Assembly: GCA_902727985.1 (NCBI GenBank)
Contig: CACVAY010000141.1
Coordinates: 1 to 64,000, forward strand
Direction: 5' to 3'
DNA from: an uncultured Thiotrichaceae bacterium
GTDB lineage: Bacteria > Pseudomonadota > Gammaproteobacteria > Thiotrichales > Thiotrichaceae
DNA: 64,000 nucleotides
The notes beneath the pieces are model-generated. The model searched no databases. It worked only from the letters and a program-made list of their open reading frames with translations, and had not been told where the DNA came from. Positions within the stretch are counted from its first letter, which is position 1. The number at the start of each line of letters is the position of its first letter. The position numbers and the translations under genes are program-made. Shown in pieces: positions 9,486 through 31,702 of the stretch.

Positions 9486-9526
9486 CATGCTAGGATAATC
9501 TTACACGCCAGAAGAAACCTCTAAAA

Positions 9527-11197
9527 ATGACGACGCAGTCCAATAAACTCACCTTAACTGAATTTCCTTCGTATCGGCCGCTACTTGAACATTATGAACG
9601 AGTAAAAAATCTACATATGCGTCGTTTGTTTAGTGTTGACTCAAAACGCGTAGATAAATTCTCCATCGAGCACCAAGATCTGTTACTGGATTACTCCAAG
9701 AATCGCATCACCAAGGAAACAGTCGCACTCTTATGCCAACTTGCCAAGGAAGCTAAGCTTGAAGAGTGGCGAGAGCGTATGTTCAATGGAGAGGCAATCA
9801 ACAATACCGAAGGACGCTCGGTTCTACATACCGCATTACGCAACCGCAGTAATACGCCTGTTATGGTCAATGGCAAAGATGTTATGCCACAAATTAACAC
9901 CACCATCGATAAAGTAGAAAGTTTCTCCGATAAGGTTCGATCTGGCGAGTGGAAAGGCTATACAGGAAAAGTGATCACTGACATCGTTAATATCGGTATT
10001 GGCGGCTCAGATTTGGGGCCAAAAATGGTCTATCAGGCACTTGAACCCTTCCGTCATGAACGCCTAAAAGTCCATTTTGTCTCGAATGTTGATGGCGCAC
10101 ATATTGATGCCACCTTGAAACAACTCGATCCGGAAACCTCCCTTTTCATCGTCTCCTCTAAAACCTTCACAACCCAGGAAACACTCACCAATGCACATAA
10201 CGCTCGCAAGTGGTTTTTAAAGACAGCCTTAGATGAGATGCATATCAGCAAACATTTTGTAGCTGTTTCGACCAATAGCGAAGCAGTTGCGAATTTTGGC
10301 ATCGATACCAGGAATATGTTCGAATTTTGGAACTGGGTTGGAGGGCGTTATTCCTTATGGTCAGCGATTGGTTTATCGGTGGTGTTGGCAATTGGTATGG
10401 ATCATTTCAAAAGTATGCTCGAAGGTGCGCACTCTATGGATGAACACTTCCGAGAAACACCCTTGGAAGAAAATATGCCTGTTATCATGGGCATGCTTGG
10501 CATTTGGTATAACAATTTTTTTGATGCGGAATCACACGGTATTTTACCGTATGACGATTATTTACGAAGCTTACCTCTATATCTTGAGCAAGCGGATATG
10601 GAAAGTAATGGTAAATCAGTCGATAGAGATGGTCGTAAAGTTGATTACGCAACCGGCCCCATTATCTGGGGCACGTCGGGCATTAATGGGCAGCATGCCT
10701 TCTATCAAGCTTTACACCAAGGCACTAAACTGATTCCTGCTGATTTCATCATTTCCATGCTCACACATAGCGAACACCAAGAACAGCACAATATAATGTT
10801 CTCAAATGCTTTAGCACAAACTGAAGCGCTAATGCGTGGACGTAATCTGGATGAAACCTACGCTGACATTATGGCATCTGAGAAAGTCCCTCGTGATGTC
10901 GAACAACGCATACATCACATGGTATTCGATGGCAACCACCCGACTAATACCCTGTTAATCCGTAAGCTCACACCACACAGCCTGGGTATGTTGATAGCGC
11001 TGTACGAACACAAAATATTTGTCCAAGGCATTGTGTGGAATCTGAATTCTTTCGATCAATGGGGAGTCGAACTTGGCAAACAATTAGCAAAGAAAATTCT
11101 TGAGGATATTAACGCACCACAAGCAACCAACTCACACGATAGCTCTACCAACACATTGATTAATTATTATCGCGACATTATTCAACACAAAGAATAA
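9527..11197 (+). CDS. pgi: glucose-6-phosphate isomerase
   Basis: 556 aa; [37 protein letters not shown]. Confidence 0.97.
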
Positions 11198-12633: not shown

Positions 12634-14354
12634 ATGTCGTCTTATGTTGGCATATGCATCAACCCTATTACCGAGAAGGTAAAAATGGTGACTTCCATTT
12701 ACCATGGGTGTATCTGCACGGCATCAAAGACTATACCGACATGGCGGTGCATCTACAGAACCATCCCACCATGGAGGCGGTAGTAAACTTTTCACCTGTC
12801 TTACTTGAGCAATTAGATGACTACGTTCAAGAACTTGATGCTTTTTTCAATAAATCAGTCGAGAAAAGCAAGACACTTTCAGACCCCTTATTAGCCACCT
12901 TAGCGGGAGAACGCCCAATTCCTCAAGAGGCAGCAGCTCGCTATCAACTCTATGAAGACTGCAAGCGTTGCTATGCGCCCCGCATGATCGAACCATACTC
13001 GGTTTACGATCGCCTAATGCAATGTTTAAATGGCTTACTTGACGAAACCGCATCCGCAAACCTGGAAGAGCATTTCTTACTCCGCTACCTCGACGAACAA
13101 TATTTCATCGATATTCTGGTCTGGTATCACTTGGCTTGGCTCGGTCACTCATTGCGCGACACACACATTGCGCAAGACCTAATGCAAAAAGGCCAAAACT
13201 TTACTCTGGAAGACCGTCGTGCATTAACAGGTCTAATCCATCAAGCTTTAGCGGAGATTATCCCCAGCTATAAAGCACTTGCCGATAGCGGTCAAATCGA
13301 ACTGTCATTCACTCCTTATGCCCACCCAATCATTCCACTGCTCAACAGTTTTCAAAATATGGAATGTTCCCTACCTGATTCGCCTGGACCTGAGTGTGAA
13401 GATTACCCGAATGGTGAAGCCCGATCACGTTGGCATATGGAAAAAGGCATTCGCGTCTTTGAGCACTACTTCGAGCGCAAGCCGAATGGCGTATGGTTAT
13501 CAGAAGGAGGGGTAAGTGCTGATGCATTGGATCAATTGCACGACCTTGGACTTAACTGGACCGCAAGTGGAGAGCAAGTCTGGAGGAATACCTGCCAGTT
13601 AGCGGAATGTCCTACTGAAGATATGGATAACAAGCGCGCCCTATTCCGTCCTTATCAATATCAAGATAACAGCACACGCATGTTTTTTCGTGATGACGGT
13701 TTATCGGATTTCATCGGCTTCGAATACAGCCATTGGAATGCCATTGATGCTGCCCGTCACTTTGTCAAGAATCTAACAAACATAGCAGAATTCCTTGGTG
13801 AAGATGCGCATAACCATGTTGTGCCTGTAATACTGGATGGAGAAAATGCCTGGGAATATTATCTCGATAATGGTTATCACTTTCTGGATGACCTCTATCG
13901 CGAAATGACAGACTGCGAAGCCATTAATATTACAACCTTCAATCAATCAGCTGCACAGGTAGCAGCGGCACATGTTGATAAATTATGTGCGGGTAGCTGG
14001 GTATATGGCAGCTTCTCGACCTGGATTGGCGAAGCAGATAAAAATCGCGCTTGGGAGTATCTGGTCGCAGCTAAAAAAACCTGTGATGACGCCCAGCTTA
14101 GACAGGATTATTCTGTAGAGAAACTCGCCGAACTTGATGAGCAACTCGCCATCTGTGAAGGTTCAGACTGGTTTTGGTGGTTCGGTGATTATAACGCCTC
14201 AAATAGCGTACATGACTTTGATGCGCTATTTCGCACACAATTAAAAAAACTCTACTATCTTATTGATAACCCTTCACCGGAATATTTAGAGCACCCTATC
14301 TCCCATGGCGGCGGTAATGCTGAAAACTCGGGAACCATGAGGCGTAACGTATAA
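12615..14354 (+). CDS. glycoside hydrolase family 57 protein (amylase/pullulanase-like)
   Basis: 579 aa; CWHMHQPYY N-terminus, WLSEGGVS and ILDGENAWEYY catalytic-type motifs; overlaps glgC by 19 nt. Confidence 0.88.
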   Translation: MAPQLLNVVLCWHMHQPYYREGKNGDFHLPWVYLHGIKDYTDMAVHLQNHPTMEAVVNFSPVLLEQLDDYVQELDAFFNKSVEKSKTLSDPLLATLAGERPIPQEAAARYQLYEDCKRCYAPRMIEPYSVYDRLMQCLNGLLDETASANLEEHFLLRYLDEQYFIDILVWYHLAWLGHSLRDTHIAQDLMQKGQNFTLEDRRALTGLIHQALAEIIPSYKALADSGQIELSFTPYAHPIIPLLNSFQNMECSLPDSPGPECEDYPNGEARSRWHMEKGIRVFEHYFERKPNGVWLSEGGVSADALDQLHDLGLNWTASGEQVWRNTCQLAECPTEDMDNKRALFRPYQYQDNSTRMFFRDDGLSDFIGFEYSHWNAIDAARHFVKNLTNIAEFLGEDAHNHVVPVILDGENAWEYYLDNGYHFLDDLYREMTDCEAINITTFNQSAAQVAAAHVDKLCAGSWVYGSFSTWIGEADKNRAWEYLVAAKKTCDDAQLRQDYSVEKLAELDEQLAICEGSDWFWWFGDYNASNSVHDFDALFRTQLKKLYYLIDNPSPEYLEHPISHGGGNAENSGTMRRNV

Positions 14355-15763
14355 TGGCTAATTATATAGACTTACTCAAAAGGCAACCGCGACTAGCAGG
14401 AGTATTACTGCATCCAACATCCCTGCCCTCAAATAAATTAGACCGCGATGCCTACCAATGGCTAGATTTTATGGCTGATGCAGGCTTATCCGTTTGGCAA
14501 CTTTTACCGTTGGGCGTACCGCAAGAAAATTTCTCGCCCTACCAGTGCTACTCGGCTTTTGCACTCAACCCTGCTTTAATCTCAAGCTCAGAGTGGGCTG
14601 AGCCTGATTGTGACAATCCTGACTTCTTAACGTGGTTTGCGTCACAACAATTCTGGCTCGAAGATTACGCCCTTTTTATGTTGCTCAAAAAGCACTTTGA
14701 TAATCAGGCATGGAACACATGGCCAGCGGATTTTCGTGACCGTAGCCCAGATGTATTACAGGTATTCCAAGAACAACATCAGGGCCAAATCAACAGTCTT
14801 TATTGGCAACAGTATCGTTTGTATCAATGCTGGCAAGATATCCACGACTACGCACAATCCAAAGATATTATGTTATTTGGCGACATGCCTATTTTTGTCG
14901 CCCATGACAGTGCTGATGTGTGGGTACACCGAGAGTCATTCCTACTTGATGAAAAGGGAGAACCTACCGTTGTAGCAGGCGTACCGCCTGATTATTTCTC
15001 CGAAACCGGACAACGCTGGGGAAACCCTCACTACAACTGGGATTTCATGTTAGAAAATGATTTCCAGTGGTGGCTACAACGTATGCAAAACCACTTGGCA
15101 TTATTTGATTTAGTCCGCATTGATCATTTCCGTGGACTAGAAGCCGTATGGGTTATTGATAGCGAATGTGAGACGGCTATTGATGGAGAATGGATAAAAG
15201 TACCTGGACGAGCATTACTGACGCATCTACAAAAAGACATGGGTAATATTCCTGTCGTTGCAGAAGATCTTGGCATTATTACTCCCGAGGTTGAAGCACT
15301 AAGAACTGATTTTAATCTTCCCGGCATGTCAGTCTTGCAGTTCTCCTTCGATGAATTCGAAGATAACCCGCATAAACCGCAAAATATTGAAGCTGACCGT
15401 ATTGTCTATACAGGTACACATGATAACGACACAACAACAGGGTGGTTTGCTACATTGGACGACGATACGCAAGCCTATGTCATGGATATTCTACAAGCTC
15501 CCTCTCCAGATCGTATTACCGACACCATGATAGATACAGCCTTGAGTACACAAAGCCAACTAGCCATTGCACCTCTTCAAGACTTCTTGGGAATGGGCTC
15601 TGAAGCACGCATGAATACGCCGGGCATTTCAGATGATAATTGGCGTTGGTCTTTCCAATGGCAAGATCTCCCGAAAGACCTAGCCCTCATTACTCGACAA
15701 CGCCTTGAACAGGCTGACCGCTTGCTGCCCCAACACCAGGAGACAGAGACTTGTCCAGTATAA
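14354..15763 (+). CDS. malQ: 4-alpha-glucanotransferase
   Basis: 469 aa GH77; RLAGVLLHPTSLPS, RIDHFRGLEA, AEDLG, YTGTHDNDTT. Confidence 0.95.
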   Translation: MANYIDLLKRQPRLAGVLLHPTSLPSNKLDRDAYQWLDFMADAGLSVWQLLPLGVPQENFSPYQCYSAFALNPALISSSEWAEPDCDNPDFLTWFASQQFWLEDYALFMLLKKHFDNQAWNTWPADFRDRSPDVLQVFQEQHQGQINSLYWQQYRLYQCWQDIHDYAQSKDIMLFGDMPIFVAHDSADVWVHRESFLLDEKGEPTVVAGVPPDYFSETGQRWGNPHYNWDFMLENDFQWWLQRMQNHLALFDLVRIDHFRGLEAVWVIDSECETAIDGEWIKVPGRALLTHLQKDMGNIPVVAEDLGIITPEVEALRTDFNLPGMSVLQFSFDEFEDNPHKPQNIEADRIVYTGTHDNDTTTGWFATLDDDTQAYVMDILQAPSPDRITDTMIDTALSTQSQLAIAPLQDFLGMGSEARMNTPGISDDNWRWSFQWQDLPKDLALITRQRLEQADRLLPQHQETETCPV

Positions 15764-17976
15764 ACAAACCAGATATGCCCTCTTCCAAGCCTCCCGTATT
15801 AGACGACAATTTAGTACGACTACATGCTGGGCAGTATCACGATCCTTTTGAATATCTAGGTATTCATCAAAATACTCACGAGCAAACCCTGATTCGTCTC
15901 ATGCTACCTGCTGCAGAACAGGTTGAAATCAGTAATCTGGGTAGCATGAAGCGTGTCTCTGGAACAGATTATTTTGTCTATGTATTAAATAATACCGAAA
16001 CCGTTGCCCCCCATTTCACCTATCGATGGTTAGAAAAAGGTCGCGATGTCTGGCATCAAAGCATTTCTCCCTATACCTTTTCGCCACAAATTGCCGAATA
16101 CGATATACAACTATTCTCCGCCGGCAACCATCACCATGCCTATCGTTTTCTCGGGGCTCATCTTAAAAATATTGAGGGTGTGAATGGCTGTCTATTTTCC
16201 CTTTGGGCACCTAATGTTCAACGTATCAGTGTTATCGGTGATTTTAATGGTTGGGATGGGCGACATCATCCTATGCGTAGCTTGGGTAGTTCTGGTGTAT
16301 GGGAACTCTTTATCCCCGATTTACAGGCTGATGAGCAATACAAATTTGAAATCCTCTCAGAGGACGGAAGCCTTCTGGTAAAAACAGATCCCTATGCACA
16401 AGCCATGGCCTTGCGCCCTGACACCACATCACGCATCGTTCCTGATAAGAATTATGAGTGGCAAGATAAAAGCTGGATAGAACAACGTCGTACGTTTGAT
16501 TGGCAGCACCAAGCCATTAGCATTTATGAACTTCATATTGGCTCATGGAAACGTAATAACAGAGAACACGGTTTCTTGAATTGGCGAAACATTGCCGAAG
16601 AAATGATTCCCTATATACACGAACTCGGATACACACACATCGAGTTACTCCCCATTGCAGAACACCCTCTTGATCAGTCCTGGGGCTACCAGGTTACAGG
16701 CTTTTTTGCCCCTACAGCACGTTTTGGCAATCCCGATGACTTCAGATACTTTATCGACCAATGTCATCAACACAATATCGGGGTATTCCTCGATTGGGTT
16801 CCCGCACATTTCCCTAAAGATGCCTTTGCTCTAGCCCGTTTTAATGGAGGAACCCTGTATGAACATGCTGATCCTCGGCGGGGTGAGCATCAGGATTGGG
16901 GAACCTTAATTTTTGATTACGGACGTAACGAGGTTCGCAATTTCCTCATTACCAATGCCGTGTACTGGATTGAAGAATTTCACATTGACGGCTTACGCGT
17001 CGATGCGGTTGCTTCCATGCTCTATTTGGATTATTCCCGAGAAGCCGGAGAATGGGTGCCTAATGCCTACGGTGGCAGAGAAAACCTGGAAGCGATCGAT
17101 TTTCTACGCAAGATGAATGCAACGGTACATACTCTACATTCAGGTGTATTGACCATGGCAGAAGAGTCAACAGCGTGGCCAATGGTTTCGCGGCCACTAG
17201 AATTGGGTGGACTTGGCTTTTCCATGAAATGGAATATGGGGTGGATGAATGACAATCTGAGCTATATCGAAAATGATCCAATCTATCGTCAATATCATCA
17301 TGACAAATTAACGTTTAGTCAGATGTATAGCTACTCAGAAAACTTTGTCCTCCCCCTATCGCATGACGAGGTCGTTCATGAAAAGCAAAGCTTATTGAAT
17401 AAAATGCCTGGAGATTTATTCCAAAAATTTGCCAATCTCCGTCTATTTTACGCATGGCACTATGCTCACCCAGGTAAGAAGCTCCTGTTCATGGGAGGCG
17501 AGATCGCCCAATGGCTTGAGTGGAATGATAATGAGCAGTTGGACTGGACATTGCTCAATGAAGAGAATCATCAAGGCATTAAACATCTGATCACCGATCT
17601 TAATGCACTTTATCGTAATGAATCAGCGATGCATCACTGGGACTTTTCGCAAAAAGGCTTTGAATGGATTGATTGTCACGACTCTAGCCAATCCGTATTG
17701 AGCTTGATCCGAAAATCTTCCAAGCCCGAAGAATCGATTATTTGCGTGATGAACTTCACGCCAGTGGTTCGTAACAACTATCGAATTGGCGTACCTTCTG
17801 CGGATAGCTATCAAGAAATTCTCAATACAGACTCACAATATTATGCGGGATCAAACTGTGGTAATGCCGGAGAAATAATTGTAGATAAAGTGCCATGGGG
17901 AGAGTTTGAACAATCACTGCAATTAAGTTTACCCCCCCTAGCAGGCTTATTTTTAAAAGGTTTCACGCATGACTAA
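15751..17976 (+). CDS. glgB: 1,4-alpha-glucan branching enzyme
   Basis: 741 aa GH13; ELHIGSWKR, DGLRVDAVASMLYLDY, LPLSHDEVVH; TTG start at 15751 (ATG alternative at 15775). Confidence 0.96.
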   Translation: MSSINKPDMPSSKPPVLDDNLVRLHAGQYHDPFEYLGIHQNTHEQTLIRLMLPAAEQVEISNLGSMKRVSGTDYFVYVLNNTETVAPHFTYRWLEKGRDVWHQSISPYTFSPQIAEYDIQLFSAGNHHHAYRFLGAHLKNIEGVNGCLFSLWAPNVQRISVIGDFNGWDGRHHPMRSLGSSGVWELFIPDLQADEQYKFEILSEDGSLLVKTDPYAQAMALRPDTTSRIVPDKNYEWQDKSWIEQRRTFDWQHQAISIYELHIGSWKRNNREHGFLNWRNIAEEMIPYIHELGYTHIELLPIAEHPLDQSWGYQVTGFFAPTARFGNPDDFRYFIDQCHQHNIGVFLDWVPAHFPKDAFALARFNGGTLYEHADPRRGEHQDWGTLIFDYGRNEVRNFLITNAVYWIEEFHIDGLRVDAVASMLYLDYSREAGEWVPNAYGGRENLEAIDFLRKMNATVHTLHSGVLTMAEESTAWPMVSRPLELGGLGFSMKWNMGWMNDNLSYIENDPIYRQYHHDKLTFSQMYSYSENFVLPLSHDEVVHEKQSLLNKMPGDLFQKFANLRLFYAWHYAHPGKKLLFMGGEIAQWLEWNDNEQLDWTLLNEENHQGIKHLITDLNALYRNESAMHHWDFSQKGFEWIDCHDSSQSVLSLIRKSSKPEESIICVMNFTPVVRNNYRIGVPSADSYQEILNTDSQYYAGSNCGNAGEIIVDKVPWGEFEQSLQLSLPPLAGLFLKGFTHD

Positions 17977-17994
17977 CACAGGAAAAAAACAGGG

Positions 17995-19473
17995 ATGAAA
18001 GTACTTTTTGCGAGTAGTGAAGTTTGGCCTCTTTTAAAAACGGGAGGCTTGGCCGATGTTAGCTATAGCCTACCGCATGCTCTCTATGAAGAAGGCACAG
18101 ATATTCGTTTGGTGATGCCTGCTTATCGAAAAGTACTTGAAAGCATTGAGTCATTCTCGATTGCAGGTTGGTTAACGATCGAACTCGCTGGAAAATCGCA
18201 TAATATCCGCGTGCTCTCCATCACGCATCCTGAATTCTCGATACCCGTCTGGCTCATTGATGATCAGCATCTATTCGACCGCGAAGGCAACCCTTATTCC
18301 CATCCGGATGGTTATGAATGGCCTGACAGCGCTGAGCGTTTTACAATCTTTGCAAAAGCAGTATCTCAACTTGCCATGGATGCTTTAAACATTGGCTGGA
18401 AAGCCGAGGTTGTGCATAGTAATGATTGGCAAACAGGGTTGGTCTCTGCATTTTTAGAGGAAGAAACTGAACGTCCTCGCCGCGTATTTACCATTCACAA
18501 TATGGCATACGGCGGCTATTTCTCACATGATGAATTCAGGCATTTACAACTCCCCGCACAATGGTGGTCTGCAAATGGTGTTGAGTTCTATGGAAACTTT
18601 TCCATGCTCAAAGCGGGGATCGTCTATTCTGACGCAGTAACCACCGTCAGCCCCACCTATGCAAAAGAAATCTGCACCCCCGAATTTGGATGTGGATTGG
18701 AAGCGGTACTACGCCACCGACAATATAAATTATCAGGTATTCTCAATGGCATTGATACCAATGCCTGGAATCCTTCCTCAGACTCACTTATCCCCTATCA
18801 TTTCTCAGAAAAAAGACGTAACCCGGGGAAACGCAAGAACAAAAAAGCATTACTTGAAGCTTTCGGTGCGCATGTCGATGAGAAAAAACTCAACGCCCCA
18901 CTTTTGGGATTGGTAAGCCGCCTTGTTGAACAAAAAGGTGTCGATATGGTGCTGGAAGTTATTCCACAAATACTTGCCAACACCGATGCCACATTTGTTC
19001 TTAAAGGTAGTGGTCACGGATTTTTTGAAAACCGTTTACGACAATTAGCTGCTGCCTACCCTGAACATGTCTTTATTAGCATTGGCTACGATGAAGCAGA
19101 AGCTCATCTTGTTGAAGCAGGTAGTGATATATTCCTTATGCCCTCACGATTTGAGCCATGCGGTTTAAATCAACTGTATAGCCTTGCTTATGGCACACTC
19201 CCGATAGTACATCGCACTGGAGGACTAGCTGATACGGTTATGGATGCTTATATGGAAGATGGGGAAACTCTCAACCCAGAAGCAAACGGTTTTGTATTCA
19301 CTCCACCAACCACAGAAGCCTTATACCAAAGCATTGAGAAAGCCCTGGACTTATATGCTCAAAAAACGCATTGGAACCACTTACAGCGAAACGCCATGAA
19401 TGGTGATTATGGCTGGACTGTCAGCGCCCAAGCCTATCTTGATATCTACAAAAATTCGCCAAACCACTATTGA
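17995..19473 (+). CDS. glgA: glycogen synthase
   Basis: 492 aa GT5; VLFASSEVWPLLKTGGLADV, PSRFEPCGLNQLYSLAYGT. Confidence 0.96.
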   Translation: MKVLFASSEVWPLLKTGGLADVSYSLPHALYEEGTDIRLVMPAYRKVLESIESFSIAGWLTIELAGKSHNIRVLSITHPEFSIPVWLIDDQHLFDREGNPYSHPDGYEWPDSAERFTIFAKAVSQLAMDALNIGWKAEVVHSNDWQTGLVSAFLEEETERPRRVFTIHNMAYGGYFSHDEFRHLQLPAQWWSANGVEFYGNFSMLKAGIVYSDAVTTVSPTYAKEICTPEFGCGLEAVLRHRQYKLSGILNGIDTNAWNPSSDSLIPYHFSEKRRNPGKRKNKKALLEAFGAHVDEKKLNAPLLGLVSRLVEQKGVDMVLEVIPQILANTDATFVLKGSGHGFFENRLRQLAAAYPEHVFISIGYDEAEAHLVEAGSDIFLMPSRFEPCGLNQLYSLAYGTLPIVHRTGGLADTVMDAYMEDGETLNPEANGFVFTPPTTEALYQSIEKALDLYAQKTHWNHLQRNAMNGDYGWTVSAQAYLDIYKNSPNHY

Positions 19474-21974
19474 TAGAGAACCCCAAAGTGACAAAAAAAC
19501 AAAACTTCGAGATGTGTCTCTCAGAACAACTTGAACCACTACCTACTTCCCCCCAAGCGCTAGGAAAAAGTTTTGAACGTTATTTAACGTACCACCTTGG
19601 CCGCTTCAACGGCTGTAATTCTATTTACGTCTATGAAGCACTTTGCCTATCCTTACGCGACCGTCTCGTTGTTGATTGGCGTAAAACCTGGCAAAAATAT
19701 CAAACACCTGGTGTTCGCCATGCCTATTATATGTCTCTCGAGTTCCTCATGGGACGGGCCCTAGGAAACCATCTGCTGAACATGGATATTCGTGGGAATA
19801 CAGGCAAAGCCTTAGAAACCTTTTGTCTAAATTTAGAAGCCATTGAAGAAGTCGAACAAGATGCTGGTCTTGGAAATGGAGGCCTCGGACGTCTAGCCGC
19901 CTGTTTCCTTGATAGCTGTGCAACTCTAAACCTTCCCGTACTTGGCTATGGTTTACGCTATGAATACGGCATGTTCCGACAGTTAATCGCCAATGGTCAG
20001 CAGCAGGAAGAACCAGATCATTGGCTTCGTGATGGTAACCCATGGGAACTGGAGCGCCCTGAGTTCAAACAACGCATTAAATTTGGTGGGCATACTGAGT
20101 ATTACCACGATGAAACTCATGCACTGCGCGCACGTTGGGTAAACACACAGGATGTTTTAGCCATCCCCTACGACGTGCCTATTTCAGGCTATAAGAACGA
20201 AACGGTGAATACCCTGCGGCTATGGAAATCCAGTGCGACGGATGAATTCAACTTACAAGAATTTAACGAAGGCAGTTATACCGAATCCGTTGCTGAAAAA
20301 AATGATGCCGAACACATCACCATGGTGCTCTACCCTAATGATGAAAGCGAAAATGGCAAAGCTTTACGCCTAAAGCAGCAATACTTTCTAGCTTCAGCAT
20401 CCCTACAAGATGTTTTCCGCCGTTGGGAATCAACTGAAGGTAATAACTACGAAAACTTCGTTGCTCAAAATGTCTTTCAAATGAATGACACACATCCAAC
20501 CATCGCGGTTGCTGAGATGATGCGCATTTTGCTTGATGAGAAAAAGATGGGCTGGGATGAGGCTTGGGACATAACCACGCAGATCATGGCCTATACCAAT
20601 CATACGCTTTTGCCAGAAGCACTAGAGCGATGGTCTGTCCCCTTATTTGAATTTCTCTTACCGCGTTTGCTGGATATTATTTATGAAATCAATGCCCGAT
20701 TTATGCGTTTGGTTCAACAAAAATGGCCGGGAGATCAAAAACGCCATCAGCGCATGTCTATTATTGAAGAAGGTGATTATAAACATGTGCGTATGGCACA
20801 TCTCGCCATAGTGGGCAGCTTCTCCGTCAACGGTGTTGCAGCACTGCATTCAGAACTACTCTGTGATGGCCTATTTGCTGATTTCTACGAACTATGGCCA
20901 GAAAAATTCAATAATAAAACCAATGGTGTGACACCGAGACGCTGGATCGCTCATGCTAATCCGGCAATGACTGAATTGCTAAGTAAGACTATCGGTTGTG
21001 AATGGATCAAAGACCTCTCACAACTTCAACGGCTAAAAGCCTATGCTGATCCTACTGAAACAGAATTCCAGCAAGCATTTCGAAAAGTAAAACAAGATAA
21101 CAAACAACATCTTGCGGCTTTAGTTAAAAAGGAATGTGGCGTTAAGTTCAATACTAATTCCCTGTTTGATATTCAAGTAAAACGTATTCATGAATACAAA
21201 CGCCAGTTACTCAATGTCCTACATGTCATTCACTTGTACCGACAAATCAAACAAGGTAATACCGAGAACTGGGTTAATCGTTGTGTCTTGATTGGCGGCA
21301 AAGCAGCCCCCGGTTATATGATGGCAAAATCGATTATCAAACTTATCAACAATGTTGCTGAAGTGATTAACAATGACCCTGATATTGGTGACAAGCTAAA
21401 ACTCGTCTTCTTCCCGAACTATGGTGTATCTGCCATGGAAATCATTGCACCAGCAGCCGATCTTTCTGAGCAGATATCAACAGCGGGAAAAGAAGCATCT
21501 GGTACGGGTAATATGAAGTTCATGATGAACGGCGCATTGACTATCGGTACCTACGATGGCGCTAATATTGAAATTCTTGAGGAAGTCGGTGAAGAGAATT
21601 TCTTCTTATTCGGCTTGAAGGCAAGCAATGTAAAAAGCCTAAGCTCAAGCTACAACCCCGGCATGATTGTTGAAGCTGATGAAGATTTAAGAGCCGTCAT
21701 GGACTTACTTGAATGCGGCCACTTCAATGCCTACGAGCCTGGAATCTTCGATTCTATTATCGCAAGCCTATACAACTCACATGATGCCTGGATGACACTC
21801 GCTGACTTTCGTAGTTTCATTGATACCCAAAAACAGGTTTCAGAAGCATGGCGTGATCAGGAGCGTTGGATTCGTATGAGCATTATGAATACCGCATGCA
21901 GTGGCTTCTTTTCAACCGATAGAACCATGCAAGATTACAATCGTGATATCTGGCAACTGGAACCTCTCGCCTAG
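19470..21974 (+). CDS. glgP: glycogen/starch phosphorylase
   Basis: 834 aa GT35; YYMSLEFLMGRALGNHL, QLNDTHP-like QMNDTHPTIAVAE, EASGTGNMKFMMNGALTIGTYDGAN PLP region. Confidence 0.96.
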   Translation: MIENPKVTKKQNFEMCLSEQLEPLPTSPQALGKSFERYLTYHLGRFNGCNSIYVYEALCLSLRDRLVVDWRKTWQKYQTPGVRHAYYMSLEFLMGRALGNHLLNMDIRGNTGKALETFCLNLEAIEEVEQDAGLGNGGLGRLAACFLDSCATLNLPVLGYGLRYEYGMFRQLIANGQQQEEPDHWLRDGNPWELERPEFKQRIKFGGHTEYYHDETHALRARWVNTQDVLAIPYDVPISGYKNETVNTLRLWKSSATDEFNLQEFNEGSYTESVAEKNDAEHITMVLYPNDESENGKALRLKQQYFLASASLQDVFRRWESTEGNNYENFVAQNVFQMNDTHPTIAVAEMMRILLDEKKMGWDEAWDITTQIMAYTNHTLLPEALERWSVPLFEFLLPRLLDIIYEINARFMRLVQQKWPGDQKRHQRMSIIEEGDYKHVRMAHLAIVGSFSVNGVAALHSELLCDGLFADFYELWPEKFNNKTNGVTPRRWIAHANPAMTELLSKTIGCEWIKDLSQLQRLKAYADPTETEFQQAFRKVKQDNKQHLAALVKKECGVKFNTNSLFDIQVKRIHEYKRQLLNVLHVIHLYRQIKQGNTENWVNRCVLIGGKAAPGYMMAKSIIKLINNVAEVINNDPDIGDKLKLVFFPNYGVSAMEIIAPAADLSEQISTAGKEASGTGNMKFMMNGALTIGTYDGANIEILEEVGEENFFLFGLKASNVKSLSSSYNPGMIVEADEDLRAVMDLLECGHFNAYEPGIFDSIIASLYNSHDAWMTLADFRSFIDTQKQVSEAWRDQERWIRMSIMNTACSGFFSTDRTMQDYNRDIWQLEPLA

Positions 21975-22026: not shown

Positions 22027-22442
22027 ATCCCTCAATCATCGCTAGACTCCCGCTTTATCATATCAATACTGAAATGGTGACAATTATCGTGTCATTGCTC
22101 AGTGGTGGCAAGGTGGTACTTAAATTCCTCTCTACCAGCAGAAGAGCCTCTTTATTTAAAAAACAATACCTTGCTCACCTGTAAGATCTTTTTTATTTCT
22201 CGAAGAGCAATCACTCATTCATTTTTTATCAAAAAAACCATTGAGTATATTGTATACAACTCTATAAACATTATAATAAACCTTATACCACAACAATTCG
22301 GGCTTATATGTACTGATCTCCCAAGTCATTGCATTTTTCTATCTGTCCCCTATTTCTTTGGCTTTCTAAAAACAACACGACATATACTAGAAGGTTTTAC
22401 CTTCATTATTAGACAGTTAATCTTTCTATATTGGAACACCAA

Positions 22443-23498
22443 ATGATACGATTTCTTGGCTTTATTCTATTCTTTTTAGCAGTACATACATTTGCAGATG
22501 AATCAACTTGCCACACCCAACAATGCATTCAAGACAAACTGCAAGCACAAGAAGATCCTCTTGCCAGAGGCATGCGGGCATACTCAGGTAAAGATGAAAC
22601 CAAAGACTATACAAAAGCCCTTCAGCTTTTCTTGCAAGCAGCCGCAGCAGGTAAAACCCACGCTTATGAACGACTAGCAGGAATGTATGCAAAGGGACAA
22701 GGAACTCAGCAGGACTTTACTGAAAGCGCCAAATGGCATCGAAAGGCTGCAAACAATGGTAAACATAATTCGCAATTTGCCCTTGGCAATTTTTACCTGA
22801 TAGGTAAAGGGGTTGAAAGAGACGAAAAGCAAGCTTTTACATGGTTTGAAAAAGCCGCAAAAGGCAAGAATAAAAGAGCCTATCTAGTTCTGGGTTTAAT
22901 GTATGAAAAAGGCAAAGGTACAGAGAAAAACCCCAGAAAAGCCTTCAACTGGTTCAAAAAATCAGCACAGGTAGGTAATGCATCAGGACAGTATTATACG
23001 GGTCTTGCTTACACAAAAAGCAAAGGAACAACACAGGATATTGATAAAGGCATCTATTGGCTAAAAAAATCACAGAAGAATGGTTATAAAAAAGCGGATC
23101 ACCTATTATCCATCGCTCGGAAAATGCAAAAACTGGAAGTATCAAAAGCGTCAACAAAAAAAGAGCAAGAACAACAAGCTACTAATAAAAAAGTTACAAA
23201 AATAGTTGAAGCTAAGACCGAGGTAAAAACGGTTAAGAAGGAAATACCTAAAACACCGACTCTCCAAAAAGTTTCTCAACAATCAGAAACCAAGAAAACA
23301 TCTCAGCAATACCCTAGAAGGGCTAAAGTTTTTGCACCTTCATCAAATGTGAGAAGAACACCGGGAAGACGAATTATTTGCTCAATCGATACAGTCAGAA
23401 CAATCAATATTGGTCGTTCTGAGAATGGCTGGTACGCAACTGATGCATGTGGAAAAAGAGGCTATATACACAAAAGCCAAATCAGAATATTGCGTTAG
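22443..23498 (+). CDS. secreted Sel1-repeat (SLR) protein with C-terminal SH3-like domain
   Basis: Signal peptide, tandem Sel1 motifs (GMYAKGQGTQQDF..A..WHRKAA), Lys/Thr-rich linker, C-terminal FAPSSNVRRTPG... SH3-like segment. Confidence 0.8.
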   Translation: MIRFLGFILFFLAVHTFADESTCHTQQCIQDKLQAQEDPLARGMRAYSGKDETKDYTKALQLFLQAAAAGKTHAYERLAGMYAKGQGTQQDFTESAKWHRKAANNGKHNSQFALGNFYLIGKGVERDEKQAFTWFEKAAKGKNKRAYLVLGLMYEKGKGTEKNPRKAFNWFKKSAQVGNASGQYYTGLAYTKSKGTTQDIDKGIYWLKKSQKNGYKKADHLLSIARKMQKLEVSKASTKKEQEQQATNKKVTKIVEAKTEVKTVKKEIPKTPTLQKVSQQSETKKTSQQYPRRAKVFAPSSNVRRTPGRRIICSIDTVRTINIGRSENGWYATDACGKRGYIHKSQIRILR

Positions 23499-23507
23499 AG
23501 ATCCAAA

Positions 23508-23787
23508 CTAGCAATTGTGAGCCTGGGCTTTAGGTATTTCGTTAAAAGAGTGAGTCATTTCTATAAGCTTATCCACTGCAAGGTATTCCTCGAGCATGTT
23601 GGCTAAACGTTCCAATTGCTGTTCGCGTTGTTTGTTGATATCTACCGAAACAGACGTGGATAAACCCGCCCATTTAAACATCTCACGCAATACATCAGGT
23701 GTGTCGAATAGGCCATGTAGATATGCCTGCGACCAAAATACTTTTTCCGGCATCTGAGCTTGTGCCTTGTACCATCAATGCCGTCAT
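23508..23787 (-). pseudogene. cobQ: cobyric acid synthase remnant with large internal deletion
   Basis: N-terminus MTALMVQGTSSDAGKSILVAG and C-terminus AYLHGLFDTPDVLREMFKWAGL... lie back to back in different frames; junction near 23720-23734. Confidence 0.82.
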
Positions 23788-23936: not shown

Positions 23937-24503
23937 TCAAGAATGACTTGAGTGACCTGTAAGTTTGCGTGTTTGGCCTACCGCTACGTGTAACAACGCT
24001 GCGGCACCAACATATAACAAGGTAGTTTGCATATACATCGGCATATACTGGTCAACATGAGAAACATACTCAAGCATACTCATTTCGCCAAAACGTCCTG
24101 AGAATGCGTAGAAACCCGCATTTGAAATCAAGAAACACGCTGCTGTACCGATGATTGCTGCGCCCGCAAGGTTCAATAAGCCTCTCGCATCTTCACGATA
24201 ATTCGTCGATAGCCAACGTCCAGCAAACCACATAGAGAAATAGGCTGGTACTAACATGGCATAAGATGGAGTGAAACAATAATTATCACCACCTTGCACC
24301 TTGATTACCACAAGATCGACCGCCAGTGCAGCTAAAAAGAACACAGGAAATGCGATATATTTACGCAGATAAAATCCCGCAATAAAGAACACTGCCCATG
24401 ACATATCCTGAATATGGTTAACCAAACCACCACGCGTTAAAATCATCGCCAGTAGTAAAAAACCACCGATAAGCAACTGTTGATTGCGGGTTAATGTAGA
24501 CAT
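23937..24503 (-). CDS. BtuM-like solitary cobalamin ECF S-component-type membrane protein
   Basis: ~188 aa hydrophobic protein behind riboswitch-linked btuB; Cys in GGDNYCFTPSYAMLVPAY resembles the BtuM loop; assignment from memory. Confidence 0.6.
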   Translation of the reverse strand: MSTLTRNQQLLIGGFLLLAMILTRGGLVNHIQDMSWAVFFIAGFYLRKYIAFPVFFLAALAVDLVVIKVQGGDNYCFTPSYAMLVPAYFSMWFAGRWLSTNYREDARGLLNLAGAAIIGTAACFLISNAGFYAFSGRFGEMSMLEYVSHVDQYMPMYMQTTLLYVGAAALLHVAVGQTRKLTGHSSHS

Positions 24504-24635: not shown

Positions 24636-26462
24636 TCAATGGTAACTAAAAGTCACATAAGCAGCGCGACCTGCCATGTTATAACCAGATGCTAACTCAT
24701 AATCTTCATCTGTAGCATTCTCAAGGCGCAAACCAAGACTCATGTTTTTATTTAGCTTCTGCTTTGCGGATAGGTTTAGCAAAGTATAATCATCAAGCTT
24801 CACACCTCCAAAATCATCACGTGAACTAGCATGCACGACATCCATGCCCAAGTGAGACTTATTCGTCATGTCATAGCCCAGCGTGAAATTCAGTTTGGTA
24901 TTAGGTCGACGCAATAACCGATCCCCCGTTTCCTCATTTTCGGTATCTTGGGCAGTAGCATTCACCCCCCAATTCCATTTTTCCGCAAAACCTGAATAAT
25001 CAAGCTCAAAACCTTTCAAACTAGCTTCATTTATATTGTTTTGTTGTAACGAAGGCCCGGTAAAGCTAATGAGATTCTCAACTTCCGTCTTATAAAGGCT
25101 CAGTTGCAGACTTTGATTACTTGAGAAGCGTGATTTTAAGCCGATCTCCCACGTTTTTGAGGTCTCTGGTTTTAGATCCGGGTTACCCGTATATAAGAAG
25201 TTTCCACCCCCAACATCAAACCCAGGTGAAAATAACTCATTGGTAGATGGCGCTTTGAACGCGGTACCGTAACTCACAAAAGCATTGGTTTTCGGTGAAA
25301 AATCGAAGCCTGCGGCAAGTTGCCCCGTCGTTTTATTGCCTGCAAGATTATGATCGTCGTAACGAAGCGATACATCATAATTCATTGTATTGCGGCGATA
25401 GTTCATATTGCCAAATAGGGCTTTATTACTAATATCACGATCATAATCAGGCGTTTTCGCATCTTCTTTGCGATAATTCGCGCCAAAGATAGCGGCTGTA
25501 TTATCAGAAACCTCGACATCATGTTGCCAATCGAACTCCTGACGTTTCGTAACAAATTCGTCAAAAGTGCTTTTGAGATCATTCTTAGTGTTAGAAAACT
25601 GCATTTTCTGTGACCATTTATCCGACATGTCAGAAACCACATAGACAGATTGCGTATTTATTTTTGTATCCTGTTCCCCAAGATCTGGACCGAAAGCAGA
25701 TCCTGAATCAAAGTGTGAATCATTACTACTATGTAAAATATCTGCACCAATTTTCAAAGAAGCACTATAGGCGTGAGACAAAGCCAAAGTCAGGCTACGC
25801 CTCTTATAGCCATCATCATCTTGGTTAACTAATCCGCCGCCCGCTAATGATTGCGAAGAAAAGCCATCTGAATTTTCAGCAGAAGCATTCACCGAGAATG
25901 TCGTTTGATCACCCACTGACATTCCCACAGTACCTTTCTTAGTACCATACTTACCCAGTGTTACTGAAGCGTAGGGCGTCCCGTTACGGCGAGTGAATAC
26001 TTGAATCACGCCACCCATTGCATCAGAACCATAGAGCGCCGCTCGTGGGCCACGCACAATTTCTATACGTTCAATTTGCTCAACAGGGACGTTACTCCAA
26101 TCAAATGCACCTGTTGTCGATGAAGAGACTCGAACACCATCAATTAAGACCAAAGCGTGATCTGATTCTGAGCCTCGTAAAAAAACACTGGTTTGGTTAC
26201 CTGCATTCCCCGTTCTCGAAAGGTTTACACCGGGCTGTAATCGCAACACATCGATAATATCAATAGCTTGAATTGCCTCAATATCATCACGCGTAATCAT
26301 TGAGACTGACGCCAACGTATCATCTACAGAACGTGCAGTTCGGTCAGCCGTGACCACAACCTCACCAAGATCGGTAACAATTTCTTCAGCTAAAATAACA
26401 GGGGAAACCAATAAGACAGGAAGTGATAAGCCTACCACTAATGGAAAACGAGAAAACTTCAT
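24636..26462 (-). CDS. btuB: vitamin B12 TonB-dependent receptor
   Basis: TonB box-like EVVVTADRT, plug motif RIEIVRGPRAALYGSDAMGGVI, C-terminal aromatic VTFSYH; preceded by cobalamin riboswitch. Confidence 0.92.
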   Translation of the reverse strand: MKFSRFPLVVGLSLPVLLVSPVILAEEIVTDLGEVVVTADRTARSVDDTLASVSMITRDDIEAIQAIDIIDVLRLQPGVNLSRTGNAGNQTSVFLRGSESDHALVLIDGVRVSSSTTGAFDWSNVPVEQIERIEIVRGPRAALYGSDAMGGVIQVFTRRNGTPYASVTLGKYGTKKGTVGMSVGDQTTFSVNASAENSDGFSSQSLAGGGLVNQDDDGYKRRSLTLALSHAYSASLKIGADILHSSNDSHFDSGSAFGPDLGEQDTKINTQSVYVVSDMSDKWSQKMQFSNTKNDLKSTFDEFVTKRQEFDWQHDVEVSDNTAAIFGANYRKEDAKTPDYDRDISNKALFGNMNYRRNTMNYDVSLRYDDHNLAGNKTTGQLAAGFDFSPKTNAFVSYGTAFKAPSTNELFSPGFDVGGGNFLYTGNPDLKPETSKTWEIGLKSRFSSNQSLQLSLYKTEVENLISFTGPSLQQNNINEASLKGFELDYSGFAEKWNWGVNATAQDTENEETGDRLLRRPNTKLNFTLGYDMTNKSHLGMDVVHASSRDDFGGVKLDDYTLLNLSAKQKLNKNMSLGLRLENATDEDYELASGYNMAGRAAYVTFSYH

Positions 26463-26535
26463 TGCAAATACTCCAAAAACCACGCCCACCGCGTAGCTGA
26501 ATTAGTCGATCCTTTTAAATAAAAGCATCTTGAAC

Positions 26536-29216: not shown

Positions 29217-29732
29217 ATGAATAAAACTAACTCAAACAACCGCATATTGGGATGGCGAGAATGGGGAGTTCTACCAGATTTGGCTATCCCAGCTATTAAG
29301 ATGAAAGTAGATACAGGTGCAAAGACTTCTGCCCTCCATGCATTTCACATTGACCGGATACGAAAAAACCGTCAGGACTGGGTTCGTTTTGCCTTACGCC
29401 CATTACAACGAAATCATAAGAAAGTCATAACCTGCGAAACACAGATCTTAGATGAGCGCGTGGTTACTGATTCAGGGGGACACAAAGAATCACGTTATGT
29501 CATATGCTCCAGCTTACAACTAAGTACTGGTTTGCAGTGGGATATCGAACTCACATTAACGGATCGAGACAATATGCGCTTCCGCATGCTTCTCGGTAGA
29601 CAAGCATTACAGGCACAGGATTTTCTGGTGAACCCAACTCTATCCTACTGCTTGGGAAAACCTAATATTAAAACCTTGTATGCCACGGCAGGCGTACATT
29701 CACAGACCCCAGATGACAAGGATCGTTCATGA
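29217..29732 (+). CDS. RimK-associated retropepsin-like ATP-dependent zinc protease family protein (PF05618 type)
   Basis: 171 aa; [40 protein letters not shown]. Confidence 0.88.
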
Positions 29733-30619
29733 AAATAGCTCTACTCTCCCGCAATAAAGAACTCTACTCAAGCAAACGTCTGATTGAGGCCGCAAAGGAA
29801 AGAGAGCATGACATTATCGTACTGGATGCATTACGTTGTTATATGAATATCGCCACCGATAAGCCCACCATGCATTATCGAGGAGAAGAGGTGCAAGGTG
29901 TCGATGCTATCATTCCGCGTATCGGCGCCTCTGTCAGCTTTTACGGTACAGCCGTCGTTCGACAATTTGAGATGATGAACACCTACTCACTTAATAAGTC
30001 ACTTGGCATTACCCGCTCTCGCGACAAACTACATTGCATGCAACTACTTTCCAGTCGCGGCATTGGGCTACCAGAAACAGGAATTGCTAATCGTCCAGGA
30101 GATGTAAAGGATTTACTGAAAATTGCTGGCGGAACACCTTTGGTGATTAAGCTTTTGGAAGGCACACAAGGTATCGGTGTGGTACTCGCTGAAACCCGCA
30201 AAGCCGCAGAAAGTGTTATTGAGGCATTCATGGGCATTCGTGCCAATTTGCTGGTTCAGGAATATATAAAAGAAGCTGAGGGCTGTGATATTCGCTGTTT
30301 AGTGTTGGGTGGTAAAGTTATTGCTGCCATGGAGCGCAAAGCACCCAAAGGTGAATTTCGTTCAAACCTGCATCGCGGTGGCGCATCAAACTCGGTACGA
30401 CTCTCCGTTCAAGAACGTAATATGGCAATTCGCGCCGCCAAAATTGTTGGCCTCAATTTCGCAGGTGTGGATATTCTACGCTCAGACAATGGCCCAGTCG
30501 TCATAGAAATTAACTCATCTCCAGGCTTAGAAGGTATTGAAAAACAAACCAAGAAAGACATCGCCGGAGAAGTCATCAGCTATATAGAGGAGAATGTTAT
30601 TCCTCGTAAAATAGGATAG
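29729..30619 (+). CDS. rimK: ribosomal protein S6--L-glutamate ligase-like ATP-grasp enzyme
   Basis: 296 aa; [75 protein letters not shown]. Confidence 0.92.
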
Positions 30620-30649
30620 ACTTAGTCAATATTACAAAGAAAAGCAGGG

Positions 30650-31702
30650 TTGGGAATGACGATAGAAATTAACGGTATCGCAATAGCTCCTGGTGAAGAG
30701 GTATTCATCGACCTTCCCCTCCCCCCCCTATATACCCATGAAGCTCTCTCCATGCCAGTGCATGTCATCAATGGCAAACGCGATGGGCCACGTTTATTTG
30801 TCAGCGCTGCTATGCATGGAGATGAAATCAACGGTGTCGATATCATTCGCCGCCTACTGAAGCATGAAGAGCTTAATGCCAACGATATACGCGGCACACT
30901 GATAGCTATCCCCGTCGTAAATGTTTATGGCTTTATTACAAAGTCACGCTATTTGCCTGACCGCCGTGATTTAAATCGATCATTCCCCGGCTCCAGTGCT
31001 GGCTCCATGGCATCACGCCTTGCTCACTTATTCGTCACCGAAATTGCTACACAATGTACCCACGGTATCGATCTACATACTGCTGCAGAAGGTCGTGAAA
31101 ACCTGCCACAAATCCGCGCAGCACTAACCAACAACGAAATAAAAAAAATGGCATGCGCTTTCGGCGCTCCCGTAGTTAAACACAACGCGAGCTTTTTAGA
31201 AGGGTCGATGCGTGAAACCGCTGACAAACTCGGCATTCCGGTTCTACTTTATGAGGCAGGAGAAGCGCTACGTTTTAATGAGCTCTCTATTCGAGCGGGC
31301 GTAGAAGGCGTAATCAATGTTATGCGCGCCATCAACATGCTACCCGATCATGAAACGTGCCTACTCAGCAAACAACCCAGACTCACACACTCCAGCAAAT
31401 GGGAACGCGCCACTCACAGTGGCATCCTGCGTACCATCACACCGCTGGGAGAACGTGTAAGAGAAGGCGATCTGCTAGGTATCATCTCAGACCCATTTGG
31501 CGAAAAAGAAGAACACATACTGTCCAGCACAGAAGGCATCGTTATCGGCAAAAGTACCTTACCCTTAGTCTACGAAGGCGAAGCGCTATATCACATTGCA
31601 CACTTCGACGCGCCCCAAAGCATCGCACAGTCTGTTGAAGACTTTCAGCAACAGCACGACCCTGAACTCTACGAAATTCCCGATGAACCTCCCGTCAAAT
31701 GA
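30650..31702 (+). CDS. succinylglutamate desuccinylase/aspartoacylase family protein
   Basis: 350 aa; AAMHGDEINGVDIIRRL zinc motif, DLNRSFPG, GIDLHTA. Confidence 0.88.
   Translation: MGMTIEINGIAIAPGEEVFIDLPLPPLYTHEALSMPVHVINGKRDGPRLFVSAAMHGDEINGVDIIRRLLKHEELNANDIRGTLIAIPVVNVYGFITKSRYLPDRRDLNRSFPGSSAGSMASRLAHLFVTEIATQCTHGIDLHTAAEGRENLPQIRAALTNNEIKKMACAFGAPVVKHNASFLEGSMRETADKLGIPVLLYEAGEALRFNELSIRAGVEGVINVMRAINMLPDHETCLLSKQPRLTHSSKWERATHSGILRTITPLGERVREGDLLGIISDPFGEKEEHILSSTEGIVIGKSTLPLVYEGEALYHIAHFDAPQSIAQSVEDFQQQHDPELYEIPDEPPVK

Follow-up and report, generated by a model that had tools for sequence, protein, structure and literature searches.

In the window analysed here, a stretch of 64,000 nucleotides from an uncultured Thiotrichaceae bacterium, positions 23787-23508 on the minus strand are a cobQ pseudogene, as the first-pass annotation had observed. 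On the reading that we consider very probable as a whole, this gene was disabled by one deletion of ~1.2 kb, and the damaged gene lies in a B12-uptake operon of a bacterium that salvages cobinamide. The half-deleted gene is the last of the uptake operon and is unneeded for salvage.

Structure and origin of the cobQ remnant

The remnant (23787..23508, minus strand) opens with ATGACGGCATTGATGGTACAAGGCACAAGCTCAGATGCCGGAAAAAGTATTTTGGTCGCAGGC and then runs directly into ATATCTACATGGCCTATTCGAC. Its frame 1 translates to MTALMVQGTSSDAGKSILVAG, while frame 2 gives (A)YLHGLFDTPDVLREMFKWAGL...ERLANMLEEYLAVDKL... and continues to a stop at 23508. It is therefore made up of CobQ codons 1-21, including the motif QGTSSDAGK (23725..23787, minus strand), a frameshift, and, in the other frame, the last ~55 conserved CobQ codons from YLHGLFD onward plus a short tail up to the stop (23508..23724, minus strand). 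The deletion junction lies between GTCGCAGGC and ATATCTACATGG at 23724..23725 (minus strand), a placement that is accurate to one or two bases and was obtained with the cobQ genes of ten relatives.

Both pieces match NF001989, the model for cobyric acid synthase, independently, in the right order and on one strand, the 5' piece at profile positions 2-23 (E = 4.8e-6) and the 3' piece at 418-478 (E = 5.8e-8). The same two pieces were found by tblastn with four intact CobQ sequences of relatives, with identities reaching 86-90% for the 5' piece (the first 20-22 residues) and 51-56% for the 3' piece (the last 54-61 residues; E to 3e-15), and chance is not a tenable explanation for the likeness of either alignment to CobQ. 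Neither fragment scores as a functional CobQ (25.5 and 31.8 bits against a curated cut-off of 273), and the catalytic cysteine of the glutaminase domain (GICGG), which is present in 11 of the 11 intact relatives compared, belongs to the deleted middle. Thus, two CobQ-homologous ends stand in order on the same strand with the frame broken between them, and the initial description, which had a CobQ N-terminus followed by the C-terminus in a shifted frame that stays open to its stop, was accurate on each of these points, the frame reading through to 23508.

Between the two retained parts, relatives carry 1203-1245 nt (n = 10), from which we infer that cobQ was lost through one internal deletion of ~1.20-1.25 kb in a single event. 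The first-pass annotation had proposed a single event of 1.1-1.2 kb; the single internal deletion stands, and its size is at or slightly above that estimate. Because the retained 3' part starts at the third codon base, the deletion has a net length of 2 mod 3 and results in a frameshift, and since the ends are joined out of frame, cobyric acid synthase cannot be made. In the proposed course of events, the ancestral operon would have consisted of a cobalamin riboswitch, btuB, btuM and cobQ, and one deletion of ~1.2 kb would have struck cobQ. This would have removed the greater part of the ATP-binding domain and almost the whole glutamine-amidotransferase domain with its catalytic cysteine, while the uptake part of the operon was left intact. 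No mobile element or repeat was found at the junction. In one relative (G009) the 3' side reads CGCAAGC, where the present genome has CGCAGGC at the 5' side, a microhomology that is only suggestive, and exact microhomology at the breakpoint is unprovable because the genome's own ancestral sequence is lost.

The C-terminal piece has a mean identity of 53% to intact copies, vs. 61% among intact copies, and a pN of 0.30 against them, vs. 0.27 among them (both over ~53 codons). Since these values are close to those of intact genes, little extra decay is measurable over ~53 codons. Further, a fragment is visible here and at none of the other cobQ-less btuM loci examined, which suggests a comparatively late loss. 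The proposal that the deletion was recent is compatible with both observations, which neither prove nor date the event.

The uptake operon and its counterparts in relatives

The remnant closes a minus-strand locus that runs from a cobalamin riboswitch through btuB and btuM to the truncated cobQ. On the side of the remnant away from btuM, positions 22431-23498 hold a Sel1-repeat gene. The riboswitch (RF00174; 26525..26732, minus strand; cmscan 96.7 bits, E = 7.1e-23, full-length model) lies upstream of btuB, and the genome search turned up no second one. The intact btuB (24636..26489, minus strand; start codon not fixed) encodes a TonB-dependent vitamin B12 receptor that matches TIGR01779 with E = 6.5e-125, at a score under the curated cut-off of that model, and has both the Plug and the beta-barrel domains. 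The following gene (23937..24503, minus strand) is intact and encodes a protein of 188 amino acids that has no significant match in Pfam or NCBIfam. In a phmmer search it matched PDB 8c7p (E = 3.5e-33), and its Cys76 aligns with position 80 of the 8c7p chain, which is Cys80 of T. denitrificans BtuM. By this match and the conserved cysteine, the gene is btuM, and its product is a predicted solitary inner-membrane cobalamin transporter. The invariant cysteine, Cys80 in T. denitrificans BtuM, is required for function, and btuM is known to co-localise with btuB (PMC6072759). When a collection of genome contigs was searched with BtuM, only two distant loci were returned. The B12 uptake module that had been reported beside cobQ is thus present, with intact genes, as a riboswitch-controlled btuB together with btuM.

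BtuB (24636-26489, minus strand) is nearer to the BtuB of a different genus in the family (52% for G014 and 46% for G025) than to that of its own genus (~36% for G004 and G005), and the uptake operon may have been replaced or acquired by horizontal transfer. Elsewhere in the window, as read from translations only, 4-alpha-glucanotransferase, branching enzyme, glycogen synthase and phosphorylase stand in a row in a glycogen cluster (14354-21974, plus strand), and a RimK-type cluster (29217-31702, plus strand) comprises aspartyl-protease-like, RimK-like ligase and succinylglutamate-desuccinylase-like genes.

An intact cobQ follows btuM, in the order btuB-btuM-cobQ, in five genomes of the same family (G013, G030, G008, G025 and G035), with a gap between btuM and cobQ of 1 bp in G013 and ~0.9 kb in G035, and the remnant therefore occupies the place of the intact gene. 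Five members of the family have kept the nucleotide-loop genes and are without cobQ (G005, G006, G018, G019 and G029), and four of these (G005, G006, G018 and G029) have kept cobU/cobT/cobS along with btuB-btuM; in four further relatives (G007, G014, G020 and G034) cobQ and the nucleotide-loop genes are both lost. Searching with tblastn, we found no cobQ remnants at the cobQ-less btuM loci of G004, G005, G006, G014, G018, G019, G024, G029 and G034, and a match in G019 (E = 0.15) was rejected as it falls in an aminotransferase-like gene. Among the relatives examined, no genome other than the present one has a visible cobQ remnant.

In G008 (L041), two btuM copies (1345-1959 and 9500-10111) flank a late cobamide cluster of btuR, cobU, cobT, cobC, cobS, cbiB, an aminotransferase-like cobD/cobC gene and cobQ. 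Solitary CbiC-like proteins (precorrin-8X methylmutase, ~218 amino acids) are encoded in relatives at L095:5695-6351 and L097:6101-6757, with no corrin ring genes adjoining. CbiC matches of ~145-185 bits were not accepted as ring synthesis, as those examined (G013, G008 and G009) are without neighbouring corrin genes.

Cobamide genes elsewhere in the genome and alternative readings

The genome (3.54 Mb, 99.4% complete, a draft of 152 contigs) was searched for GATase_3 proteins and with the CobQ model, and no second cobQ was found in it. The one GATase_3 protein over the cut-off (477 amino acids; L001:739-2172, G000:C146) was rejected as a second cobQ, as it belongs to the CobB family and is encoded between an NrfD-like gene upstream and an IscA-like gene downstream. 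This is the position of dsrN in the dsr operons of sulfur oxidisers, and the CobB-family amidase in this dsr-type context is probably DsrN. The same context, along with general gene content, points to a sulfur-oxidising gammaproteobacterium. A further weak match was discarded as CobQ, being a HisH-like glutamine amidotransferase of the his operon.

Other cobamide genes are present and open: cobU and cobT are adjacent on contig C6, cobC and cobS are on contig C32, and btuR is on contig C151, with metH likewise open on contig C75. With one Pfam model for each, neither CbiB nor CbiC was found in the 152-contig draft, and no CobB beyond the DsrN-like protein was found in the genome. Having cobU, cobS, cobT (cobC) and an adenosyltransferase, and, on the corrin ring genes searched, no CbiC and only a DsrN-like CobB, with CbiB also absent, the organism is predicted by gene content to be a cobinamide salvager, and to take its corrinoid from neighbours. 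In such a cell, cobamides and cobinamide would be imported via BtuB and BtuM, BtuR would adenosylate the imported corrinoids, and CobU, CobT, CobC and CobS would complete cobinamide for MetH, with no step for CobQ. B12 import has probably been kept, and B12-like molecules are probably still finished from a scavenged precursor.

The product of CobQ is cobyric acid, the substrate of CbiB. Since CbiB is absent, the CobQ reaction would lead nowhere in this organism, and since CbiB and CbiC are both absent and cobinamide salvage does without CobQ, its loss would break no working route. CobQ therefore appears to be dispensable here, although relatives without CbiB have an intact orphan CobQ, so that some use in the family is possible and the word dispensable is uncertain. 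The first-pass annotation had expected an interruption of cobyric acid formation; as an effect on a functioning pathway, this is the claim that we do not uphold, given the absence of CbiB and CbiC, a CobB that is only DsrN-like, and a salvage route without CobQ. The idea that CobQ loss disrupts a late corrinoid pathway that would otherwise work may draw on the intact nucleotide-loop genes; however, cobyric acid could not be converted to cobinamide anyway with CbiB missing, CbiC is missing as well, and the CobB family is represented only by the protein in the dsr-type context, which makes this idea highly improbable.

Two other explanations concern the remnant itself. If cobQ were intact in the living cell and ~1.2 kb had been omitted in assembly, the deletion would be an artefact, and the assembly is indeed a draft of 152 contigs; however, the junction is well within a 65.7-kb contig, the region is present once in the genome, no strong repeat spans the junction, and no other contig carries the missing middle with its GATase_3 domain, so an artefact is very unlikely. 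Alternatively, the 81-amino-acid frame at 23753-23508 (minus strand) might encode a small protein that originated from the CobQ C-terminus, is functional and is maintained by selection, given that the frame is open over the CobQ C-terminal part and the short tail, and that its pN against intact copies exceeds the value among those copies only slightly. However, a recent pseudogene would look identical over ~70 codons, and such a protein would be without the nucleotide-binding and catalytic parts and would start at an out-of-frame internal ATG, with the short version found in no relative; we regard its existence as extremely improbable. We therefore retain the reading of a cobQ pseudogene formed by deletion.

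Orphan CobQ in the family and comparison with known systems

Intact cobQ occurs in five relatives in which CbiB was not found, namely G004 (L034), G009 (L093), G013 (L037), G026 (L042) and G035 (L073; this genome is only 92% complete). These orphan CobQ proteins retain the GICGG nucleophile and the YLHGLFD motif, and full-length comparisons within this CobQ group give pN of ~0.09-0.17 vs. pS of ~0.7-0.9, values by which cobQ in these genomes is under strong purifying selection. Since CbiB was not found there, cobyric acid is without a known consumer in these genomes, which raises the question of CobQ's role in them: either CbiB was missed or has been replaced, or CobQ is used otherwise. One conceivable, if rather unlikely, answer is that the uptake-linked CobQ of the family has a role beyond de novo synthesis, such as re-amidating damaged or deamidated scavenged corrinoids, in which case the deletion here would be the loss of an accessory repair or salvage function.

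The cobQ remnant is a case of ordinary pathway erosion, in which the loss of a gene can still be seen. It offers a snapshot of the stepwise erosion of the B12 pathway, in which synthesis is lost and uptake and nucleotide-loop completion are retained. Compared with CobQ/CbiP (NF001989, TIGR00313), the remnant has the N-terminal QG(T/C)TSDAGK and the C-terminal YLHGLFD...LERLA on one strand and in the right order, but ~400 internal codons are missing and its two ends stand in different frames, as in a pseudogene and not in an enzyme.

Cobinamide salvagers are a recognised class that accounts for ~15% of bacterial genomes (PMC6461909). Like the organism studied here, they (e.g., Escherichia coli) combine uptake and nucleotide-loop genes with little or no corrin ring synthesis (PMC6461909); the present genome differs in having BtuM in the locus and a recognisable cobQ fragment. 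A parallel to the decay itself is found in the cobQ and cobU pseudogenes of Mycobacterium leprae, where cobQ has likewise decayed in a lineage whose cobamide synthesis is eroded, although lineage and operon are unrelated and the likeness concerns the decay as such (PMC12713380).
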